Source of the DNA: Sulfuricurvum sp. PD_MW2
GTDB lineage: Bacteria > Campylobacterota > Campylobacteria > Campylobacterales > Sulfurimonadaceae
DNA length: 64,000 nucleotides
Reading direction: 5' to 3'
NCBI RefSeq assembly: GCF_002633015.1
Contig: NZ_NSIU01000002.1
Location: 1 to 64,000 of the forward strand
Both the position numbers and the translations under genes were made by a program. Of the stretch, positions 3,789-15,379 are shown piece after piece; the stretch's first letter is position 1; every line of letters starts with the position of its first letter. The notes under the pieces are model-generated. The model did no database searches. It worked only from the letters and a program-made list of their open reading frames with translations, and had not been told where the DNA came from.

Positions 3789-5078
3789 TCAATCACTAAC
3801 TATGCGATTTCTACCTAATGTTTTTGCAGCGTACAAGTGCGTATCAGCACGCTGCAATAAAGTAATCAATGTATCATCGGAATGCTTTTCTGCTATACCG
3901 CAAGAACACGTAATAACTATCCCCTTATCCAATGCACTCAATTCAAATGCACTTCGAATCCGTTCTGCTATTTCATGAGCTTGTTCAACATTGGTTTGAG
4001 GCAATATGACAACAAACTCTTCCCCGCCCCATCGAGCTATAACATCATTTATACGCGTATACTCTTTTAATACAGTTGATAAAGATTGTAATATCTCATC
4101 CCCTTTCATATGGCCGTAATTATCATTGACCTTTTTAAAATGGTCGATATCCAAGACAATAATACTCAACTGCTCTTTTCGAAGCATAGAGTCGGTAAAT
4201 AATATCAATGACATATTGTCAAAAGCTCTTCGATTATACAAATGGGTGAGTGGATCTAATTGTGAAGCTTGAGCCAATGTTATATCGTGATACATAATGA
4301 CAAATGAATCAATAGACTCTTTACTCCGTACAGGGCGTATTTGGATTTCTGCAATGAAAGTAGTTCCATCCGCTCTAGCACTGCATATCTGAGCATTCCA
4401 CACTTCATTTTCTTGAATCATTTCCCAAGCTTTTTGATAACCATCCGTATCTAATTCTAAATGCTGCAGGATAGAAAAATGTTTCCCCTTGAGCTCTTCT
4501 CGAACATAACCGCTCAAAGCGCAAAATGCTTCCGTCGCTTCTAAAATGACCCCTTCTTTATCCACTCGTATGTAAGGAACATTTTCCTCTATAATCGCAT
4601 TTCGCTCATGCAATTCTCGGTTCAAAGAGTGAATAATCTCTGTATAAATTCCAATAACACCATACAAACTGTAATCAAGGAGCATTAATACTTTATGCTT
4701 TTCATCCAGAATTTCATGTTTACCGCGTTCATCGTATGCCCGATTGATGGTGTTTTTAAATGTAGTACAGTTTATATAAATCTCTTCGACACTTAATCCA
4801 ATATCATAAAAGCGCTGTACCATCTTTCGCATGGTTGGACATTCGGGATTAACATGCTGCTGTTCTAGTAAATACGCTAAATAATTGTAGACGGGAGTAG
4901 CAATTTCTTCTCTAAATTGATTTAGTTCAAATCCTATATGCTCCATAATATCTGAAGTAGCAGCACTATGACACCACATTTCAATAACGAATTCTTTGTT
5001 TTTTGTAAAAAACTGTTTTGTTTGTTCAGAGAAACCAAGTGCGGAAATAGCATCAATTAGCCGTTCAAGTGATTTCAA
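3789..5078 (-). CDS. PAS-GGEEF diguanylate cyclase with helical N-terminal sensor
   Basis: A 429-residue soluble protein. Residues 1-155 are helical with no membrane segment and resemble the globin-like sensor halves found on RsbR-type and some cyclase proteins; I cannot assign a cofactor. A PAS domain spans about 165-270 (SGYVREELKGK, DITLAQ). The GGDEF domain (about 271-429) has an intact GGEEF at 351-355. It is preceded by an RxxD inhibitory site (R342-D345) at the correct five-residue distance, so product inhibition is expected. Start is TTG with AGAGA upstream. It lies directly downstream of siaABC in the same direction, separated only by a recombinase scar, so it could play the SiaD (cyclase) role. 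It does not look like Pseudomonas SiaD in its N-terminal part. Confidence 0.88.
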   Translation of the reverse strand: MKSLERLIDAISALGFSEQTKQFFTKNKEFVIEMWCHSAATSDIMEHIGFELNQFREEIATPVYNYLAYLLEQQHVNPECPTMRKMVQRFYDIGLSVEEIYINCTTFKNTINRAYDERGKHEILDEKHKVLMLLDYSLYGVIGIYTEIIHSLNRELHERNAIIEENVPYIRVDKEGVILEATEAFCALSGYVREELKGKHFSILQHLELDTDGYQKAWEMIQENEVWNAQICSARADGTTFIAEIQIRPVRSKESIDSFVIMYHDITLAQASQLDPLTHLYNRRAFDNMSLILFTDSMLRKEQLSIIVLDIDHFKKVNDNYGHMKGDEILQSLSTVLKEYTRINDVIARWGGEEFVVILPQTNVEQAHEIAERIRSAFELSALDKGIVITCSCGIAEKHSDDTLITLLQRADTHLYAAKTLGRNRIVSD

Positions 5079-5190: not shown

Positions 5191-5300
5191 ACGATTGGAA
5201 AAATAGAGTTATGAAATCAAGACATTGATGAATTATAAGGACATAAATATGACGCTGAGATATACGAAAGCTCGCCGAAGCCAACAAGGTTTCGGCAGTG
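5191..5300 (+). pseudogene. Tyrosine recombinase remnant, left copy
   Basis: Two blocks match the recombinase fragment at 15,056-15,379. Bases 5191-5210 are identical to 15099-15118 over 20 nt (encoding DWKNRV). From 5228 the sequence encodes MN..DINMTLRY.K, the region around the catalytic tyrosine, matching from 15197. The material between the blocks is 17 nt here and 78 nt in the other copy. An extra A in GAAAGCTC breaks the frame just after the tyrosine, and the frame is restored to LAEANKV. There is no start or promoter. This is a decayed fragment in direct orientation to the right copy, 9.9 kb away. Confidence 0.8.
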
Positions 5301-5311
5301 GAGAAGATTTA

Positions 5312-5686
5312 TTAGATTGCTACAAAATTAAAATTGACATTTGAAAGATCTTCTTGAAATTCTCGTCCAAACTCTTCAGCAGTATCATCTTCTGCGTGAA
5401 ATTTCCAATCTACATTGATTAAATTGAACTCCGATACATCTTCAAGGAGAGTAAAGAGGTTAAAAAATACTTTCGTACTCGCACTATTGAAATAGGTCAA
5501 AAAGAATTCAAACGTAACTTGTGAGTCATTAAGACTTCGTAAGTGAGATTCAATAGGACTCATAATAGGGTCAAAAAAAGCTTTTACATCTTCAGGAAAT
5601 GATTCTCCTTCAAAACTAAAAAAGTTTCTACTTTTGTCAATAGTGATCTTAGGGGTAGTTGCCGTAGCGGGGATTACAGTTTGCAT
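5312..5686 (-). CDS. siaC: SiaC-family regulatory phosphoprotein (DUF1987)
   Basis: A 124-residue soluble protein of the DUF1987/SiaC family. It shows an N-terminal strand region with FSFEGESFPED, a middle helix, and the family core motif YFNSASTK (65-72). The phosphorylated Thr of Pseudomonas SiaC falls in this motif, so S68, S70 and T71 are candidates here. In the characterised system the partner kinase SiaB phosphorylates SiaC, the PP2C phosphatase SiaA dephosphorylates it, and unphosphorylated SiaC activates a diguanylate cyclase. It sits last in a tight three-gene operon, 22 bp after siaB, with AAGGA upstream of the ATG. Identification rests on the motif and on the neighbouring genes. 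Confidence 0.85.
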   Translation of the reverse strand: MQTVIPATATTPKITIDKSRNFFSFEGESFPEDVKAFFDPIMSPIESHLRSLNDSQVTFEFFLTYFNSASTKVFFNLFTLLEDVSEFNLINVDWKFHAEDDTAEEFGREFQEDLSNVNFNFVAI

Positions 5687-5708: not shown

Positions 5709-6254
5709 TTAAATCATTACTTTGAGCGTGAAACAATCATATTCATGATCAAGCTCAATAAAATCAAATTGAATCGGTTCGGTAGATTTACGAGCCATTT
5801 CGATAAAGCCTATACTCGCACCTTTACTGCCTTCATCGGGTTCGGTGTTGATTTTTTCTTTATAAAGCGATTTCAGCTCTTCCGGACTCATATTGGCAAT
5901 TGTTTCCAGTTTATTTCTCAATGTTTCAACCTTATCTTTTTCAATACGGTTTGAGCACATGATATAAAACTTATCGCCTTCCGTACCAATCGCAATTGAG
6001 CCGTAACTCATTCTTTCCGATTCATCATTGGTGATTTGATCCGGAGAGTAGCGGGTAATATTTTGGGCTTGCTCTACAAACATATAAAGCACTTTTTGAC
6101 TCACTCCCATTTTGGTTTCATCGGCACTTAACTTGCCTCTGATCATCGAACCTACTGCAACAATAATGTCTTGTGAAAGATACCCGTTGTAGCAAAAGAT
6201 CACATCATTCGATTCGATAATCCCTTTTAACTCACGATATTCATTAAGTGTCAT
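5709..6254 (-). CDS. siaB: SiaB-family protein kinase (GHKL-type)
   Basis: A 181-residue soluble protein with degenerate GHKL/anti-sigma-kinase features. There is an N-box-like FVEQAQNI (E61, N65) and a late glycine-rich GSKGASIG (142-149) followed by FIEMARK. No histidine phospho-acceptor domain is present, so it is not a two-component kinase. In the Sia partner-switching system the SiaB kinase phosphorylates SiaC. It begins 17 bp downstream of the phosphatase gene with AAGGGA upstream of its ATG, so the three genes are almost certainly one transcript. Confidence 0.83.
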   Translation of the reverse strand: MTLNEYRELKGIIESNDVIFCYNGYLSQDIIVAVGSMIRGKLSADETKMGVSQKVLYMFVEQAQNITRYSPDQITNDESERMSYGSIAIGTEGDKFYIMCSNRIEKDKVETLRNKLETIANMSPEELKSLYKEKINTEPDEGSKGASIGFIEMARKSTEPIQFDFIELDHEYDCFTLKVMI

Positions 6255-6271: not shown

Positions 6272-7891
6272 TTAAATTTGAAATCCGATCATTGTGTTAT
6301 CATCGCGCTGTTGTTCTTCACCTTTGTATTGATAATATGTTTCCAAAATCACCTTTTCTTGTTCTTTCATAGGTTTTGTATGATTATCGAAAATAGCTTC
6401 CATCAAACGTTTTTTGCCAAAAGCAATCCGTTTTTCTCCACCTATCTGATCGACTATTCCATCCGTAGTTAAGTAAAATCGCATCCCTTCTTTTAGTGCT
6501 AGAGTGTGATTTGTAAATTCAAAATCAATATTGCTATGAACATACCCTATGCTATGTTTGTCTGGTTTGATATGATGCAATGTACCTTCATCGATATACA
6601 ACAATGGTGTATTAGCCCCAGCAAATGTAAGCTGTTTATTTTCAATATCGACGTAACAGAAAGCACCATCCATCCCATCATCAGATTCACTGGAATCGTC
6701 AAACTGACCCAATGTCTCTTTCACAAGACGATTCATTTGTGACAAGAGTTTTGCCGGATCATCAAGATCACGTTGTTGGGATAAAAGACGGTCTAGAATC
6801 GATATAACAACAAACGTCATTAATGCCCCCGGCACACCATGACCCGTACAGTCAATAATAGCGACGAAGAATCCTTTATCTGTTTTATCTACCCAATAAC
6901 AATCTCCGCCTATTACATCTTTAGGTTTCCAAATAACAAAAGCATCATTTGAAAAATTGTTTAGCATATTAGGATTTGGAAGAAATGATCGTTGTATTCG
7001 ACTTGCATAGTTAATGCTGCTGCGTACTAAAGCATTTATATCTGCAAGTTGCTGGTTATTTTTTTGAATTTGCTCAAAAGAGTTGTAAAGAGCCCTGCGA
7101 GACAGTTCAAAACTTTTCCCGACTTGACCGATTTCATCGTTTCGCTCCCAGATAAAAGGTTCATCTAGCTTTTGATTTGCTAAGGCTTTGGATTGTTCGA
7201 TCAATTCTCCAAAAGGTGTTGTGATATTTGAAACTACTCTTTTAAGGATTTTTTGAACATACATAGAGCCCACTGTAATAATGACAAGTATCAATGCAAG
7301 AATCGCAAAAAATTGTATCTGTGTTTTTGAATAAAGATTTTGAGCATTAATAATTTGAATTTGCATCAGCTTATTTAGTCGAGGGGTTAATTCATTAATC
7401 GTATAAGGAGCATCATCCGTTGTCCACGATACCACACTCATAAGTTTTTTATCGTGTACAGCTTTAATCAATAAATCCAAACTATGCACTGAAAGATCAA
7501 AATATTTTTGATTATCAGGCAAAAGCTCTTTTTCTTCATCCGTCAAATAACCGTTTGAATAAGCATCCCAAGCATCTACAATGATTGCGCGTTGACTCAA
7601 TAGTTCTTTTTCCGCTACCGCGTAATCAGAAACTTCACCTTCTGAAATACTTCGTGCTTTAACAAGAACATTTTGTTCAAATGCTTCTTTAATAAGTCGA
7701 AGATGCCCTAAAGGTTCAAGTGAATTATTATTTAAAGATCGGATCGACAAGTTAGATAAAAGCATACCTATAATACCTGCAATAATCGCGCTAACCGCCA
7801 GTATTTGTGTTAGTTTTACAAGATAATTTACCTTGTCATTGATACTGGTATCCATTAATACACTTGGATCGAATTTTGATAAAAATCGCAT
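6272..7891 (-). CDS. siaA: SiaA-like membrane PP2C (SpoIIE-type) phosphatase with HAMP
   Basis: A 539-residue inner-membrane signalling phosphatase with TM1 at about 28-48, a helical periplasmic sensor of about 140 residues, TM2 at about 192-212, a HAMP linker (213-268), a coiled segment and a SpoIIE/PP2C domain (about 310-539). Metal-binding motifs are intact: GGDCYW (328-333), DCTGHGVPGALM (347-358), DGMDGAFC and the C-terminal RDDNTM. In the family SiaA dephosphorylates SiaC in response to an external cue. It is first in the siaABC operon and diverges from the two-component cluster at 8101. What its periplasmic domain senses cannot be read from sequence. Confidence 0.87.
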   Translation of the reverse strand: MRFLSKFDPSVLMDTSINDKVNYLVKLTQILAVSAIIAGIIGMLLSNLSIRSLNNNSLEPLGHLRLIKEAFEQNVLVKARSISEGEVSDYAVAEKELLSQRAIIVDAWDAYSNGYLTDEEKELLPDNQKYFDLSVHSLDLLIKAVHDKKLMSVVSWTTDDAPYTINELTPRLNKLMQIQIINAQNLYSKTQIQFFAILALILVIITVGSMYVQKILKRVVSNITTPFGELIEQSKALANQKLDEPFIWERNDEIGQVGKSFELSRRALYNSFEQIQKNNQQLADINALVRSSINYASRIQRSFLPNPNMLNNFSNDAFVIWKPKDVIGGDCYWVDKTDKGFFVAIIDCTGHGVPGALMTFVVISILDRLLSQQRDLDDPAKLLSQMNRLVKETLGQFDDSSESDDGMDGAFCYVDIENKQLTFAGANTPLLYIDEGTLHHIKPDKHSIGYVHSNIDFEFTNHTLALKEGMRFYLTTDGIVDQIGGEKRIAFGKKRLMEAIFDNHTKPMKEQEKVILETYYQYKGEEQQRDDNTMIGFQI

Positions 7892-7968: not shown

Positions 7969-7986
7969 TATTACACATGTGTAATA
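7969..7986. promoter_or_regulatory. 18-bp perfect palindrome, candidate operator
   Basis: TATTACACATGTGTAATA is perfectly self-complementary. It sits 78 bp upstream of siaA and about 115 bp upstream of the first receiver gene, in the shared divergent region. A dimeric regulator binding here could control one or both operons. The regulator is unknown, and no DNA-binding protein is encoded in the island. Confidence 0.5.
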
Positions 7987-8100: not shown

Positions 8101-8511
8101 GTGCGTATAGCGATTGTAGATGATGAACAAACCATAAGAATGGTTGCACAAGTACAATTAAAATTAATAGAAGGTGCACTTCAATCCGAGGATGAAGTTA
8201 TCGTTTATTCTGATCCAGAATCATTTTTGAAAGCATTTACTGAAAATCCGAAAGATTATTTTTCAATAGCAGTTATTGACCATGATTTGGGTGAAGGTAA
8301 GTTAAGCGGATATGACTTAATCAATATCATGTTCAAAGAGAATTTTTCTGGTGTCACCGTATTATTCACATCAACGGAGTCACAACTATCGGAGGCGAAA
8401 GCCCAGCTAAACCAAGGTATTTATTTTGTTAATAAAATAAATATAGAAAATCCGAAAGTACCGTATGAAGAACTTGCGAAATTATTACAAAAAGCTCGTA
8501 ATAGAGAATGA
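8101..8511 (+). CDS. Stand-alone receiver domain protein 1
   Basis: A 136-residue single-domain response regulator of CheY type with no output domain. The acidic pair is IVDDE (D7, D8) and the phospho-acceptor is D60 in VIDHDLG. The Thr/Ser position is LFTST and the conserved Lys is in FVNKI. It starts at GTG with AGAGGA upstream. It is one of three similar 136-residue receivers in this operon (with 8536 and 12046), which share an unusual ICDh.Lg....GyDll stretch after the phosphorylation site. I infer a phosphate shuttle or sink for the neighbouring kinases. The target is unknown. Confidence 0.85.
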   Translation: MRIAIVDDEQTIRMVAQVQLKLIEGALQSEDEVIVYSDPESFLKAFTENPKDYFSIAVIDHDLGEGKLSGYDLINIMFKENFSGVTVLFTSTESQLSEAKAQLNQGIYFVNKINIENPKVPYEELAKLLQKARNRE

Positions 8512-8535
8512 AATCCATAATAAGGGAAAAATAAA

Positions 8536-8946
8536 ATGACAATAGCTTTAATCGATGATCAACAGCCAATATTAAAACTTTATTCTGCAATGCTTGTAAA
8601 AGCAGGAGCAATAAAGAGTAATGATAGTTTATACACATATAGTGATGGGACAGAATTTTTAACCGTTATACAGGAAGAACCATCAAAGTTTGATGTTGTC
8701 ATCTGTGATCAAAATCTCGGTAAAGATCAAATCGAAGGGTTGGATATCCTTCGAGGGATGATAAATGTAGGATTTCAAGGAAAAGCTATTTTATTAACCG
8801 GAGATAATTCAGATTGGATGAAAAAGCAAATGGAAGAAGTGCCAACGATTGATTATGTTTTAAAAGGGAGTAGAAGCGAAGAAAATAACCCTTATGTTGT
8901 ACTAACTAAAATATTAAATACTTATCGTAAGCAGTTTAATAACTAA
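8536..8946 (+). CDS. Stand-alone receiver domain protein 2
   Basis: A 136-residue receiver-only protein. It has the acidic pair LIDDQ (D7, D8), phospho-acceptor D58 in VVICDQNLG, LLTGD at the Thr position and the conserved Lys in YVLKGS. It follows receiver 1 after 24 bp with GGGA upstream of the ATG. It is a paralogue of the products at 8101 and 12046: same length, with matching YSDG.EFL and ICD.nLG segments. There is no DNA-binding or enzymatic output, so it must act by protein contact or as a phosphorelay intermediate. Confidence 0.84.
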   Translation: MTIALIDDQQPILKLYSAMLVKAGAIKSNDSLYTYSDGTEFLTVIQEEPSKFDVVICDQNLGKDQIEGLDILRGMINVGFQGKAILLTGDNSDWMKKQMEEVPTIDYVLKGSRSEENNPYVVLTKILNTYRKQFNN

Positions 8947-8965
8947 TCAGCCAAAGAATAAAATA

Positions 8966-11900
8966 ATGTATTACTCAAAACCAAATCTAAATTGTCTTTA
9001 TGTTGAAGATGAAGAGGATCTTTTATTTCATACTGCAGATTTAATAGGTGCAATGCTTTGTAAAGAGTGTTTGGTTTTAACTGCTAAAAATGGTCAAGAC
9101 GGACTAAACATTTATCGCCACCAGATCGAAACGATAGATTTTATTATTACCGATATTACTATGCCTATGATGAATGGGTTAGAGCTCATGCGGGAAGTGA
9201 GGAAGATTAATAAAAATATTCCCATAATCGTACTCACTGCACATGATGAAGATTCTATGCATATTGATATTCAAGCGGCTGGAGCAAATCATGTATTTTA
9301 TAAGCCGCTTACGGATATATCAGGGTTAAGGCAAGCCATTGAATCGATATACGCTGTTAAAACCGTTAAACAGCTAAAAAATCAGATGAGTGCCGAAGAG
9401 TATAGAACCATTACCGATTCGATAGCTCTTGTTTCTAAAACAGATCCTCGGGGACGCATCACTTATGTAAATGACCTATTTTGCAAGATATCAGGCTACA
9501 ACAGAGAGGAACTAATAGGCAAACCGCACAGTATTGTACGCCATGCAGATACAGCACCAGAAGTGTTTAAAGAAATGTGGAATGTCATTAACAGTGGAAA
9601 AACATGGAATGGTCGAATTCGAAACCTTACCAAAGAAGGGAAAAGTTATATTGTTGATGCTTGGATTACTCCGAAGATTGAAAACGGAAAAATTACAGAG
9701 TTTACCGGTATCCGATATGATGTCACTGAGTCGGTATTAAATAAAGAGTGGGCGGAACAGCAACAAGAACTGATGCGCTACATTCTTGATGAACAAACTA
9801 ATATTGTTGCGATCGGCACAAAAACTGAGGGGTTGGTTCATGCGAATAAAGTATTCTTTGAAACATTCCCGTTTGACACTCTTGAAGAGTATAAATCCAA
9901 ACATTCATGCATATGTGAATTATTTGATAGCTTTAGTACAAAAAATTCCCTAGAAAAAGATGAGTGGCTCGATAGTGTTTCATCTTCGTTGGGAAGCGTC
10001 AAACATACTGAGCAATTTAGAGATCGTGATGGAAAAGATCGTGTATTTGACGTAACTTCCAAATCTATTGTCATTAAAAACCATGAGTATTATATTCTCT
10101 CTTTTTCGGATATAACCGATGCGCAAGCACTCGTAGAAGCCGCTAGACATGAATCCTATGCCAAGTCTACCTTTCTTGCAAATATGAGCCATGAAATCCG
10201 AACACCTCTCAATGGGATCATAGGCTTCATTGGGATGCTCTCAGAGACACAATTGAATGAGATACAGCAGCGTTATATTAACACCATCAACAGTTCTGCA
10301 GAAAGCTTGCTGTCCATTATTAACGACATCCTTGATATCTCCAAAATTGAATCCGGTGGATTTACCATTGATCATATTGATTTTGACCCGGTTAAAGAGT
10401 TCGAGAGTGTTGTGGAACTTATGGTTTCTAAGACGCATGAAAAAAAGTTGGATTTTTGTTGTTTTATAGATCCCGCTTTTCCAAAGTCGGTTATTGGTGA
10501 TCCGTTGCGACTTAAACAGATTCTTATAAACTTAATCGGCAATGCTGTTAAATTCACGAGTGTCGGAAAAGTCGAAGTAATCACTGAGTATATCAAGAAT
10601 GATAGCGGCGTCTCAAGAATGAGAATTTCTGTAAAAGATACAGGTATCGGCATTGCCCAAGAGAAGTTGGAAAATATTTTTAATCCGTTTGAGCAAGCTG
10701 ATAACTCAATTACTAGAAAATTTGGCGGAACTGGTCTTGGACTCGCAATTTCAAGGCAATTAGTGGAAATGATGGGGGGTGAACTAAAAGTTGAAAGCTC
10801 TCGTGGAAAAGGGAGTCAATTTTATTTTGAATTACCGATTGAGGTTTGTAACCGTACACCTAAATATCTATTGAGTGCTCCTAAAAAAATAGGAATCATT
10901 ATTGTTGATATTGAAATGGCACACTGTATGGATACTCTTTATCGCTATTTGGATGCATTTGAAATCGAATACAAAGAGATTAAGATGGATGAATATGTCA
11001 CAGATTGCGATACATTGCTTGTTATCAGAAATGGACATAATGAATTTGATGGGATCGATGAGAAGTTTAGAAATATAAAAAGAGTTATTTCAATTGTTCC
11101 GGCGGGAAATGATACTTATAATTTCACTTCTCATGCAACCATCAGCGCACCGATTAGCGCGTCAAAAATCTATAGCGCAATAGTAGACGATAGAAATCAT
11201 AACATTGATGAAATACAGATTGAAAAAAAACTAAGACTACGTACCCAATACAATGCATCCGTATTGGTTGCTGAAGATAACGAAACGAATCAAGCGATAG
11301 TTAAAATTCTTTTAGAAAAAATTGGTATATCACCCGATATCGCTAATAATGGTCAAGAAGCCAAAGAGATGTATTTATCCCATGCACATACGGCCAAAAA
11401 GCCCTATGATTTAATCTTAATGGATTCAATGATGCCTATTTTAAATGGAACCGATGCAATGCTTGCGATTCGGAAAATAGAAACAGATTATGGGTATCCC
11501 CATACACCAATTGTAGTATTAACGGCAGATGTTCAAAAAGGAAGAGAAAAAGAATATTTGGATGCAGGAATGGATGGATATATTTCTAAACCAATCCGAA
11601 TGGATGATTTTTTCTTTGAGATTGATCGGCACCTCTTTAGGTGTACTAAAGATGCATCAAAAATGGAACCGAAGAATGTTATAACCGTCGATAACGCTCT
11701 TAAAGAAGAGATCAATAGTGATAAATCGATTCGTACTTGTATTGCAAATGGTGTGGCTGAAGCATTTGGGCTTGATCAAGAAACATGTTTAATGTTGGCA
11801 GATAGTTTTATGGAAACAACATTGCCAAATTTAGCGAAGTTAGAAGATGCGATTAGGCAAAAAAAATACTCGAGTATTAAATCGTTGGCCCATAGTATCA

Positions 11901-12046
11901 AGGGGGCTGCCGGCTCATTGCAAATTATAGTGATATATGAAGCAAGTAGGTTAATAGAAGAAAATGCAGGAGAGTGCATTGAGAAATTTGATTATATGAC
12001 CCATTTAAAAAAAATAAAATCATATCTAAGGATTGGAGAACACTAA
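8966..12046 (+). CDS. Hybrid histidine kinase: receiver-PAS-PAS-HisKA-HATPase-receiver-HPt
   Basis: A 1,026-residue soluble kinase with no membrane segment. Domains in order: N-terminal receiver (about 5-125, D63 in ITDITMP); PAS (about 145-255, SGYNREELIGKPHSI); a second weaker PAS-like region (about 260-390); HisKA with H409 in MSHEIRTPLNG; HATPase (about 520-640, DTGIGI, FGGTGLGL); a second receiver (about 770-890, D820 in LMDSMMP); and a C-terminal HPt (about 935-1026, H976 in LAHSIKGAAG). This is a complete His-Asp-His-Asp relay in one chain, and the HPt could pass phosphate to the small receivers on either side. The upstream gap is 19 bp with a weak ribosome site. Its stop overlaps the next start by 1 nt. 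The signal is cytoplasmic and unknown. Confidence 0.92.
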   Translation: MYYSKPNLNCLYVEDEEDLLFHTADLIGAMLCKECLVLTAKNGQDGLNIYRHQIETIDFIITDITMPMMNGLELMREVRKINKNIPIIVLTAHDEDSMHIDIQAAGANHVFYKPLTDISGLRQAIESIYAVKTVKQLKNQMSAEEYRTITDSIALVSKTDPRGRITYVNDLFCKISGYNREELIGKPHSIVRHADTAPEVFKEMWNVINSGKTWNGRIRNLTKEGKSYIVDAWITPKIENGKITEFTGIRYDVTESVLNKEWAEQQQELMRYILDEQTNIVAIGTKTEGLVHANKVFFETFPFDTLEEYKSKHSCICELFDSFSTKNSLEKDEWLDSVSSSLGSVKHTEQFRDRDGKDRVFDVTSKSIVIKNHEYYILSFSDITDAQALVEAARHESYAKSTFLANMSHEIRTPLNGIIGFIGMLSETQLNEIQQRYINTINSSAESLLSIINDILDISKIESGGFTIDHIDFDPVKEFESVVELMVSKTHEKKLDFCCFIDPAFPKSVIGDPLRLKQILINLIGNAVKFTSVGKVEVITEYIKNDSGVSRMRISVKDTGIGIAQEKLENIFNPFEQADNSITRKFGGTGLGLAISRQLVEMMGGELKVESSRGKGSQFYFELPIEVCNRTPKYLLSAPKKIGIIIVDIEMAHCMDTLYRYLDAFEIEYKEIKMDEYVTDCDTLLVIRNGHNEFDGIDEKFRNIKRVISIVPAGNDTYNFTSHATISAPISASKIYSAIVDDRNHNIDEIQIEKKLRLRTQYNASVLVAEDNETNQAIVKILLEKIGISPDIANNGQEAKEMYLSHAHTAKKPYDLILMDSMMPILNGTDAMLAIRKIETDYGYPHTPIVVLTADVQKGREKEYLDAGMDGYISKPIRMDDFFFEIDRHLFRCTKDASKMEPKNVITVDNALKEEINSDKSIRTCIANGVAEAFGLDQETCLMLADSFMETTLPNLAKLEDAIRQKKYSSIKSLAHSIKGAAGSLQIIVIYEASRLIEENAGECIEKFDYMTHLKKIKSYLRIGEH

Positions 12047-12456
12047 TGATTAAAATTGCGATTATAGATGATATTCCTACGGTAGCTACCGTTTGTGAAA
12101 AACTGCTAATACAAAAAAATGCAATCACTAATGAAGATATATTTGACAAATTTACAAATAGTCGTGCTTTTTTACAAGCGTTTCATCATTGGGGAATTAA
12201 TCATTATGATTTGGTTATTTGCGATCATCATCTTGAAGAAAATGAGGATATTAGCGGGTATGATCTTTTGATGCACATTCAAATACTTGGTTATAAAAAC
12301 TTTGCAGTGCTTTATTCTGCTGATAACGAAGCTTTAAATGATATTAGTCTTATTGTGGATAAACATAAAATCGATCTGCTTTCAAAAGACCAGCCTGGAA
12401 ATACAGAATCGATAGACCATATTACAGATATTATTCGAGAAATTAAAGGGTTTTAA
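12046..12456 (+). CDS. Stand-alone receiver domain protein 3
   Basis: A 136-residue receiver-only protein and the third paralogue in this operon. It has acidic pair IIDDI (D8, D9), phospho-acceptor D60 in VICDHHLEE, YSAD at the Thr/Ser position and Lys in LLSKDQ. Its ATG overlaps the stop of the hybrid kinase (TAATG), so translation is probably coupled. The Ser in place of Thr and the loss of Gly after the phosphorylation site make it the most divergent of the three. Confidence 0.83.
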   Translation: MIKIAIIDDIPTVATVCEKLLIQKNAITNEDIFDKFTNSRAFLQAFHHWGINHYDLVICDHHLEENEDISGYDLLMHIQILGYKNFAVLYSADNEALNDISLIVDKHKIDLLSKDQPGNTESIDHITDIIREIKGF

Positions 12457-12458
12457 AT

Positions 12459-13811
12459 TTGAACAATTCAATTCAAAAACAATCAAATCAAATCGCTCAG
12501 TTGCAGCAAAGTTTAGAACAATTGAATACGGGACTTTTTGATGCCACAGCTCATAGTGCCATTATATTAACCAATCAAGCTGGTGAGTTAACGCAGTCTA
12601 ATAAATATTTTCAGCAGCTTTTCCAAAATATGCAAATTAATACACTAAAAGACTTGCCAATCAAAAATACCTATGGAGCATGTGAACAAGAAAGTTGTTT
12701 GAGTTTCTTGACACAAAAAGAAGAGCAAATTCTCCCGAAAGTAGAAATGTTGATTAACGAGAAGCTTTTCTACTTTACCATTGTTTCAACTGCTATTCAT
12801 AATGGTGAAATAGAGAATGATCGCATAGATAGAAAATACATCATTTCTTTAACCGATATCACCAATGTGGTTGAACTGCATAAAAATGAGATGAGTATTT
12901 CCAAAGAGCTTGCATACAAGCAAGGTATTTTTGATGTGACAAGCGAGTATATTCACAACATTGGAAACACGATTACAGGAACTCAGCATCTCGTGAACCG
13001 TATCATTAAAAACCTTGAGCCAATGCAGGGCTTTATAAAATATTTTAACCTCACAAAAGATCAGGTAAAAAATATCAATGCGTACATCAAAGAAGAAAGC
13101 TCGGAAGATTACGCCAAAGATGCCAAGCGCATTGAGATGAGTTTGAATATTATTGAATCTTCATTAACGGATACTATCAAAAACGTGCTTGAAACCGATA
13201 TGACAGCTTTACAGAAGGGAATAAACAACATTGCATCCACCATTGCGTTTCAACAAGAGCTTTATAAAAACAATAAGGTAAATATGGACGAAGAGGTGGA
13301 TATCATCGCACTTACAAAAGAGGTGAAAAGTGTTATCGAATCGCAATTAATCCGCAATGATATCAACGTGGAGATTAGAACCGAAGAGGGGTGCACATTT
13401 AAGATCAATCGGGTTCACCTTTACAATGGAATTTTAAATCTTATTAAAAACTCAGTCCATGCGTTAAATTCTGCCTCTGAAAACAATATGATCGAGAATA
13501 AACAGATTGTAATCACTATCCGAAATGAGAAAAAAGAGGATGGCTTTTTTGAATTTGACATGATGACGAGTGATCAAATGATCACCTCAAACAATGTTAT
13601 TATCGAGATTGAAGACAATGGGATTGGAATCGATTCTACCGTGATAGAAAATCTTTTCGTTCAAGGTTACACAACCAAAAAAGACGGGCACGGACTAGGG
13701 CTTCATTCTTTTGCCAACTTTCTTCGAGGAAGTGGACATTTTATACAATGTGTCTCGGATGGCATTGGCAAAGGTGCCAAATTCTCAATACATTTAGTCT
13801 CGCAGGAATAG
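12459..13811 (+). CDS. Soluble histidine kinase with an HNIGN-type H-box
   Basis: A 450-residue cytoplasmic kinase. An N-terminal coiled coil (about 1-25) is followed by a PAS-like sensor (about 25-150), a dimerisation helix with H166 in YIHNIGNTI, a long helical region, and an HATPase domain (about 290-450). The HATPase N-box is LNLIKNSVHALN, and G-boxes are DNGIGID and GHGLGLHS. The HNIGN box differs from the common HE.R.PL form and places this in a less usual HisKA group. It starts at TTG, 2 bp after the previous stop, so translational coupling is likely. It has no receiver of its own and probably phosphorylates one of the operon's small receivers. Confidence 0.85.
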   Translation: MNNSIQKQSNQIAQLQQSLEQLNTGLFDATAHSAIILTNQAGELTQSNKYFQQLFQNMQINTLKDLPIKNTYGACEQESCLSFLTQKEEQILPKVEMLINEKLFYFTIVSTAIHNGEIENDRIDRKYIISLTDITNVVELHKNEMSISKELAYKQGIFDVTSEYIHNIGNTITGTQHLVNRIIKNLEPMQGFIKYFNLTKDQVKNINAYIKEESSEDYAKDAKRIEMSLNIIESSLTDTIKNVLETDMTALQKGINNIASTIAFQQELYKNNKVNMDEEVDIIALTKEVKSVIESQLIRNDINVEIRTEEGCTFKINRVHLYNGILNLIKNSVHALNSASENNMIENKQIVITIRNEKKEDGFFEFDMMTSDQMITSNNVIIEIEDNGIGIDSTVIENLFVQGYTTKKDGHGLGLHSFANFLRGSGHFIQCVSDGIGKGAKFSIHLVSQE

Positions 13812-13815
13812 GATT

Positions 13816-15063
13816 ATGTTTAATATCTTATGTATTGATGATGATCAAAACATTCTTAATGCCTATAACTCAATTCTTGGACCTGTTGAGAAAAGTGAAT
13901 TTGATGATGCATTAAGCGAACTGGATAGGTTGTTTCGTGATAACGCCGAAGATAAGCCGGTGGAAATCAAAGAAGATATTTTCACTGTCCATATGGCCAA
14001 TAGCGGTTTAAGCGGGATTGAGAAATTCAAAGAACTGCTATCTAGCAATCAAAGCGTATCTGTCTGTATTATTGATATGCGGATGCCGAATGGTATTGAT
14101 GGATTGGAAACAGCCATTCGTATCAAAAAGATTGATCCAGATGTAAATATTATTATCTCTACCGCGTATTCCGATAAAACAATCAAGGAGATATCCGATC
14201 GTTTAGAAGACAAAATATATTATGTACGCAAACCGTTTCATAGTGATGAAATTTATCAATTAGTGTACTCATTGTCATTGTCATATAAATCTACCAAGGC
14301 ATACAAAGATCTAAATGCTCACTTGGAAGAGCGAATAACCACGGAAGTGGAAGCTGGCAGACAAAAAGATGCGATGATGTTTCATCAAGCTAAAATGGCT
14401 GCGTATGGAGAGATGATAGGCAATATTGCTCACCAATGGAGACAGCCACTTAGCGTCCTTTCTGTAATCCTAAACAAAATAAATTTGCAGGCTGAAGATG
14501 GAATAGATAAAGATGTATTCAGTGAGAATATGTCGCAAGCATTTAATACAATAAGATATATGACACAAACCATAAATGATTTTCGAGAGCTAGTTGAGCC
14601 TAGCAAAGAGAAAATTTTGTATGATGCAAAAGATGCTATCTTAAAGACTGTACGATTAGTTGAGAAGAACTTTCTGGTATCAAGAGTTGCAATAGAATGT
14701 CAACTTGAAAATATTAATCTGCATGGATATCCGGATGATTTAAAACAAGTACTTTTGGTACTTCTACATAATGCAAAAGACGCTATCAACTCTAATGAAA
14801 TAATTGAGAATGGATTAATAAAAATTTCACTCAAAAAAATTGATAATCAAGTAGTTATTGAAGTAAGCGATAATGGTGGCGGAATAAATCCAGATTTAAT
14901 AGAGCGGATTTTTGAGCCATATTTTACAACAAAGCATAAGAGTCAAGGAAGTGGACTTGGACTATATATGGCAAGTCGTATTGTTACTGAAAGACTTTCA
15001 GGAATATTGATGTGTTGTAATATCGATAACGGAGTCTCTTTTTGCCTCAAAATAGATGTATAA
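13816..15063 (+). CDS. Receiver-histidine kinase hybrid (cytoplasmic)
   Basis: A 415-residue protein. An N-terminal receiver (1-155) has the acidic cluster CIDDD, phospho-acceptor D87 in IIDMRMP and conserved Lys in VRKPF. It carries an extra segment of about 30 residues between helix 1 and strand 2. A coiled linker (about 160-185) follows, then HisKA with H206 in IAHQWRQPL, an H-box form frequent in Campylobacterota, and HATPase (about 300-415, LHNAKDAI, DNGGGI, GSGLGLYM). It starts 4 bp after the previous stop with AGGAATAGGA upstream. Its end overlaps the recombinase remnant by 8 bp. The N-terminal receiver suggests kinase activity set by phosphorylation from an upstream kinase. Confidence 0.9.
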   Translation: MFNILCIDDDQNILNAYNSILGPVEKSEFDDALSELDRLFRDNAEDKPVEIKEDIFTVHMANSGLSGIEKFKELLSSNQSVSVCIIDMRMPNGIDGLETAIRIKKIDPDVNIIISTAYSDKTIKEISDRLEDKIYYVRKPFHSDEIYQLVYSLSLSYKSTKAYKDLNAHLEERITTEVEAGRQKDAMMFHQAKMAAYGEMIGNIAHQWRQPLSVLSVILNKINLQAEDGIDKDVFSENMSQAFNTIRYMTQTINDFRELVEPSKEKILYDAKDAILKTVRLVEKNFLVSRVAIECQLENINLHGYPDDLKQVLLVLLHNAKDAINSNEIIENGLIKISLKKIDNQVVIEVSDNGGGINPDLIERIFEPYFTTKHKSQGSGLGLYMASRIVTERLSGILMCCNIDNGVSFCLKIDV

Positions 15064-15379
15064 ATATGATCAGCTGTTTAATCAGGGGTTAACAAGAGAC
15101 GATTGGAAAAATAGAGTTTGTAATCATACCCTTCGGCATACATTTGCAAGCCACTTAGCGATCAATCAAATACCGCTATATGAGATTAAGAAGCTAATGA
15201 ACCATCGGGATATTAATATGACGCTGAGATATGCGAAGCTTGCCGAAGCCAATAAGGTTTTGGCGGTGGTAAATCTTCATGGAAGTCTGAATGAGACTAT
15301 TGTGATGATCATCAGCATATACAGTACTTTAGGCATGTTTCCTCCTATATTCTATTTCTCACAATATGTAAAGAGCTAA
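15056..15379 (+). pseudogene. Tyrosine recombinase remnant, right copy (C-terminal part only)
   Basis: The frame encodes a normal C-terminal half of a phage-type integrase catalytic domain: HTLRHTFASH (box II Arg and His), then MNHRDINMTLRYAKL with the second His and the catalytic Tyr, then AEANKV. The N-terminal arm- and core-binding domains and the box I arginine are missing. The last 30 or so residues look like read-through into non-coding DNA. It has no credible start or ribosome site and overlaps the end of the kinase gene. It matches the fragment at 5191-5300. I read it as a recombinase scar marking the right edge of the signalling island. Confidence 0.85.

Follow-up and report, generated by a model that had tools for sequence, protein, structure and literature searches.

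A soluble phosphorelay operon apparently assembled from two kinase modules beside siaABC in Sulfuricurvum sp. PD_MW2

An operon of Sulfuricurvum sp. PD_MW2 encodes histidine kinases and receivers, is devoid of any DNA-binding protein and is transcribed divergently from a siaABC operon. What such a relay acts upon, and whether the neighbouring Sia module is its output, as proposed by a sequence-only reading of the locus, is the question considered here. We analysed positions 1-64,000 of contig NZ_NSIU01000002.1 (assembly GCF_002633015.1), hereafter the window, and compared its genes with those of related genomes. The explanation that we favour, with moderate confidence, is an accessory, mobile, purely cytoplasmic phosphorelay derived from two modules, the output of which would work by contact on the motility or c-di-GMP machinery.

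The relay operon and its free receivers

The relay operon comprises six co-directional ORFs on the forward strand (8101-15063) with successive gaps of 24, 19, -1, 2 and 4 bp (Table 1); the GTG start of R1 is preceded by an RBS-like AGAGGA. All parts of a two-component phosphorelay, namely HisKA/HATPase kinase, receiver and HPt, are present with their catalytic residues. No plausible membrane span was detected in the six proteins by hydropathy (maximum KD19 1.43) and no DNA-binding domain by Pfam, in agreement with the original description of a soluble six-gene operon without DNA-binding output. The five receivers counted in that description are in fact six canonical ones, three free, two in HYB and one in RHK. 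The order receiver-PAS-PAS-HisKA-HATPase-receiver-HPt given there for HYB is recovered by Pfam, except for the second PAS, a putative domain assigned by eye.

Table 1. Features of the relay-siaABC region of the window
Feature	Coordinates	Strand	Evidence
PAS-GGDEF diguanylate cyclase, SiaD candidate, outside the bracketed block	3789..5078	-	Pfam
Decayed recombinase tail, left bracket (approximate limits)	5191..5312	+	about 80% identical to right copy, direct orientation, 9.97 kb away
SiaC phosphoprotein	5312..5686	-	PF09345; alignment to 6KKO
SiaB-family kinase	5709..6254	-	PF19788; NF038262 above its cut-off
SiaA-like PP2C phosphatase with 4HB and HAMP	6272..7891	-	Pfam; PDB 6K4E match, E 2.7e-48
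18-bp perfect palindrome TATTACACATGTGTAATA between the divergent operons	7969..7986	.	sequence scan
R1, free receiver, 136 aa, GTG start	8101..8511	+	PF00072, 26.8 bits, below curated cut-off
R2, free receiver, 136 aa	8536..8946	+	PF00072, 38.7 bits
HYB, soluble hybrid kinase REC-PAS-(PAS)-HisKA-HATPase-REC-HPt, 1026 aa	8966..12046	+	Pfam
R3, free receiver, 136 aa	12046..12456	+	PF00072, 28.2 bits, below curated cut-off
HNIGN-type soluble histidine kinase, 450 aa	12459..13811	+	Pfam HATPase_c
RHK, REC-DHp-HATPase hybrid, 415 aa	13816..15063	+	Pfam REC and HATPase
Tyrosine recombinase C-terminal fragment, right bracket	15056..15379	+	PF00589 positions 115-170 only

HYB shares the HisKA-HATPase-REC-HPt order with the tripartite hybrid kinases of the ArcB/BarA type, and BarA is its best NCBIfam match, at 417 bits against an equivalog cut-off of 890. 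It differs from them in being soluble, in having an extra N-terminal receiver and in being partnered by free receivers, whereas the ArcB/BarA type is coupled to a DNA-binding regulator. The parts of the relay are ordinary, and it is their assembly that is uncommon, mobile and two-armed.

All three free receivers retain the D-D-D-T/S-K active site (acidic pair, phospho-acceptor Asp, T/S and Lys), as read off the alignment. The AlphaFold model of R2 has the receiver fold (pLDDT 90.6), with receiver domains as its best PDB matches in Foldseek, and the sequences of R1 and R3 place them in the same predicted fold; used as a profile against the PDB, the free receivers matched generic receivers only. 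The sequence-only reading had emphasized three paralogous receivers of 136 residues, which is correct for the window, but the length is not kept in the orthologues (133, 139, 136, 137 and 153 aa). Recent duplication as the cause of the equal length was rejected, given these varying lengths and pairwise identities of only 23-30%; the shared length is a coincidence without evidential weight. R3 alone has a close orthologue, in genome G100 (61% identical, grouped 100/100 in the tree). With three divergent receivers surrounding a single HPt kinase and effector domains absent, R1-R3 could serve HYB mainly as sinks for phosphate or as partners in feedback, and not as outputs. We consider this improbable, as the strong conservation of R3 and the divergence of R1 are better accounted for by different partners than by redundant sinks.

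Two modules and their chemotaxis neighbourhoods

Besides the window's genome, only G052, G094 and G100 have the receiver family (4 of 200 family genomes), and the only further match among 397 phylum genomes is a weak one within a 520-aa frame. In each of the four, the HPt-containing HYB adjoins at least one free receiver, and the three orthologues of HYB keep the PAS-HisKA-HATPase-REC-HPt order. We designate this combination of free receiver(s) and HPt hybrid kinase, adjacent every time, module (a). The HNIGN kinase followed by RHK constitutes module (b), a conserved pair that usually resides within chemotaxis clusters. The gene order is R-HYB-R-HNIGN-RHK in G100, and R-R-HYB-R in G052, directly after an MCP-CZB and PAS pair and a CheY-like protein; G052 was absent from the HNIGN kinase matches. 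In G094 the modules lie on different contigs, R-HYB on one of them and HNIGN-RHK inside a Che cluster on another. Since G094 splits the modules and G052 carries R-R-HYB-R without being among the HNIGN matches, the modules are separable, and the operon in the window was apparently assembled from two kinase modules that are found apart elsewhere.

The HNIGN kinase was identified in 16 of 151 family genomes, with 11 close matches (the window's included) and 5 distant ones, and the motif EYIHNIGN is invariant in the 8 homologues aligned. In G076 the close match (L029, 10036-11411) is a broken gene with stops and a change of frame. A scan of genome contigs yielded full-length relatives only in Sulfuricurvum/Sulfurimonas-type genomes, and a viral origin was rejected after the HNIGN query gave no match in viral_contigs. 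Wherever homologous loci were examined, those of distant relatives with a Cache domain included, the gene immediately downstream of the HNIGN kinase gene is RHK-like. The pair lies inside a chemotaxis cluster at L020, L021, L024, L028 and L029, where Pfam identified CheA (L021) and CheB, CheD, MCP, PAS and REC-GGDEF-EAL proteins (L024), CheW and CheR being assigned by inspection only. The MCPs near these pairs are of the MCP-CZB type. In two of the clusters, the gene for the REC protein is followed by one for a WD40/beta-propeller-like protein of ~695 aa (L021, 3201-5279; L024, 4016-6109). In the RHK tree, the window and G100 copies nest with one Che-cluster copy (95/94); the HNIGN kinase tree gave no resolved grouping of this kind. 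The neighbours transcribed divergently from the relay operon in G100 are GGDEF and GGDEF-EAL genes.

No CheA, CheW or MCP is encoded in the window operon, these proteins being found beside the HNIGN-RHK relatives, and no output gene is common to all four genomes with the receiver family. Because no Che gene stands beside the window relay, the proposed motility output is transferred to it from its relatives. The context evidence is thin and comes in part from MAGs, as the receiver family is confined to four genomes. Relatives of both modules likewise occur beside a split MCP and PAS pair, which resembles in gene arrangement the bipartite energy-taxis receptor CetA/CetB (PMC2628428), although the pair is absent from the window operon and the MCP of the relatives has a CZB domain. 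Caulobacter HmrABCX, described in the portion of PMC11481889 used here as a putative hybrid-kinase phosphorelay that tunes the motile/sessile choice through c-di-GMP, may be likened to the window relay by description only.

We propose that the two modules would form two arms. In the first arm, HYB would sense a signal via its PAS domain(s) and autophosphorylate, the phosphate would travel in His-Asp-His order to the HPt of the same protein, and from there it would be loaded onto R1-R3, the free receivers whose genes surround that of HYB. In the second arm, the HNIGN kinase would phosphorylate the receiver of its presumed partner RHK and thereby tune the RHK kinase. The output would be exerted through protein-protein contact and not through transcription; its likeliest targets would belong to the motility and c-di-GMP machinery (chemoreceptor/Che proteins, diguanylate cyclases), to which the co-inserted SiaABC may perhaps be added in this genome.

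Joint insertion of the relay and siaABC

The genes hcp and uvrB are adjacent in G100 (200 bp between them) and 14 kb apart in the window. Within this insertion, siaCBA and the relay are bracketed by a recombinase C-terminus that is present twice in direct orientation, and the earlier reading had missed both copies. The right one belongs to a truncated recombinase gene that overlaps the RHK stop codon, with the repeat proper spanning 15099-15290, and the left one is its decayed twin. Homologous fragments occur in G104, G088 and G074. We infer that siaABC and the relay were moved or put together as one block; the events may also have followed another order. Integration at a tRNA was rejected in the absence of any tRNA near 15 kb, and the low GC content of siaABC is weakened as proof of transfer, as the siaABC genes of relatives also have 34-41% GC.

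The region upstream of uvrB varies within the genus and looks like an integration hotspot; in G074 and G088 the recombinase-tail fragments are located near uvrB. The relay and siaABC could be unrelated passengers of this hotspot whose adjacency is accidental, and since their linkage is not conserved, this is a serious possibility, if one that we hold to be short of probable. It is opposed by the recurrence of sia-TCS associations at other loci and by the divergent arrangement of the two operons around a shared palindrome. This 18-bp palindrome lies in the 209-bp intergenic region, shuffles of which contained palindromes of at least 16 bp in 66 of 5000 cases, and its 14-bp core is not repeated exactly anywhere else in the genome; the palindrome hints weakly at a shared control of both operons.

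The window encodes the SiaA phosphatase, the SiaB kinase and SiaC together, as expected of a SiaABCD module, with SiaA and SiaC scoring below the P. aeruginosa equivalog cut-offs and SiaB above its subfamily cut-off. SiaABCD of P. aeruginosa is described as a threonine phosphorylation switch (PMC7647112). The window resembles it in having SiaA, SiaB and SiaC homologues, here divergent from the relay, with a cyclase nearby. It differs in that the cyclase falls outside the bracketed block and that SiaC has Ser aligned with Thr68, a conservative replacement and putative phospho-acceptor. The first ~160 residues of the cyclase have no Pfam match and are possibly an undescribed sensor domain.

SiaC is above its cut-off in 25 of 151 family genomes. 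Same-genus siaABC operons are 63-78% identical to that of the window and are not adjoined by the relay; conversely, neither SiaB nor SiaC was detected in G052, G094 and G100 (the last 88% complete), which are all the other genomes with the receiver family. The co-occurrence of receivers and siaABC suggested as a check on the proposed link is thus not seen elsewhere, and there is no support for a general, hitherto undescribed system whose output is SiaABC. The pairing appears from these comparisons to be a single local assembly, and SiaABC is a possible output of the relay in this genome only.

Phosphorelay proteins in other sia operons

We surveyed 48 Campylobacterota sia loci, with strand runs defined by a common strand and gaps of up to 150 bp, and annotated them with HMMs built from checked examples. 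REC or HATPase genes are present in the same-strand run at 24 of them, and make up 31 of 178 non-sia genes inside the runs versus 13 of 326 outside (Fisher p 1.4e-6, an optimistic value because several loci are related, the annotation derives from our own examples and no phylogenetic correction was applied). A free REC immediately precedes siaB at several loci (L046, L120, L122, L123, L127, L135), an HK lies beside siaB or siaC at others (L035, L042, L043, L128, L139), and REC-REC-SiaA fusions occur at two (L117, L143); these recurrent patterns are partly confirmed by Pfam. With L036 and L040, these loci form a set of sia operons with HK, free REC, HD-GYP, GGDEF or REC-REC-SiaA genes, and the histidine kinases embedded in them are soluble. 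By BLAST, R1-R3 are unlike the RECs at the sia loci of our initial set, and the relay genes within other sia operons appear to be non-homologous to those of the window.

These patterns, the common bracketed block and the divergent arrangement over a palindrome-containing intergenic region speak for the relay as a dedicated input to SiaABC, in which phosphorylated R1-R3 would act by binding to SiaA or SiaB, so altering the phosphorylation of SiaC and hence cyclase activity. We nevertheless find this rather unlikely, given the three other receiver-family genomes without SiaB and SiaC, the same-genus siaABC operons without the relay, and the failure to detect relatives of R1-R3 in other sia operons. 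It is likewise doubtful that Campylobacterota repeatedly wire varying His-Asp relays into the SiaABC Ser/Thr switch, with this island as a new, mobile example whose receivers address Sia and c-di-GMP. The joining of His-Asp and Ser/Thr signalling envisaged at the outset is plausible in view of the kinase and receiver genes at half of the sia loci, but this particular pairing is seen in a single genome.

Pathways combining PP2C, kinase and STAS proteins with c-di-GMP enzymes, and a REC-PP2C-kinase combination driven by an unknown HK, have already been predicted in print for Campylobacterota (PMC9239204). That prediction concerns fused or adjacent parts, and the receiver family of the window is not mentioned in the section of that work covered here.

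The accessory two-module relay that we favour shows how portable modules can be pieced into phosphorelays, and the survey supplies a collection of naturally occurring sia operons that contain kinases and receivers, where the direct transfer of a signal from the His-Asp to the Ser/Thr kind of signalling could be put to the test.
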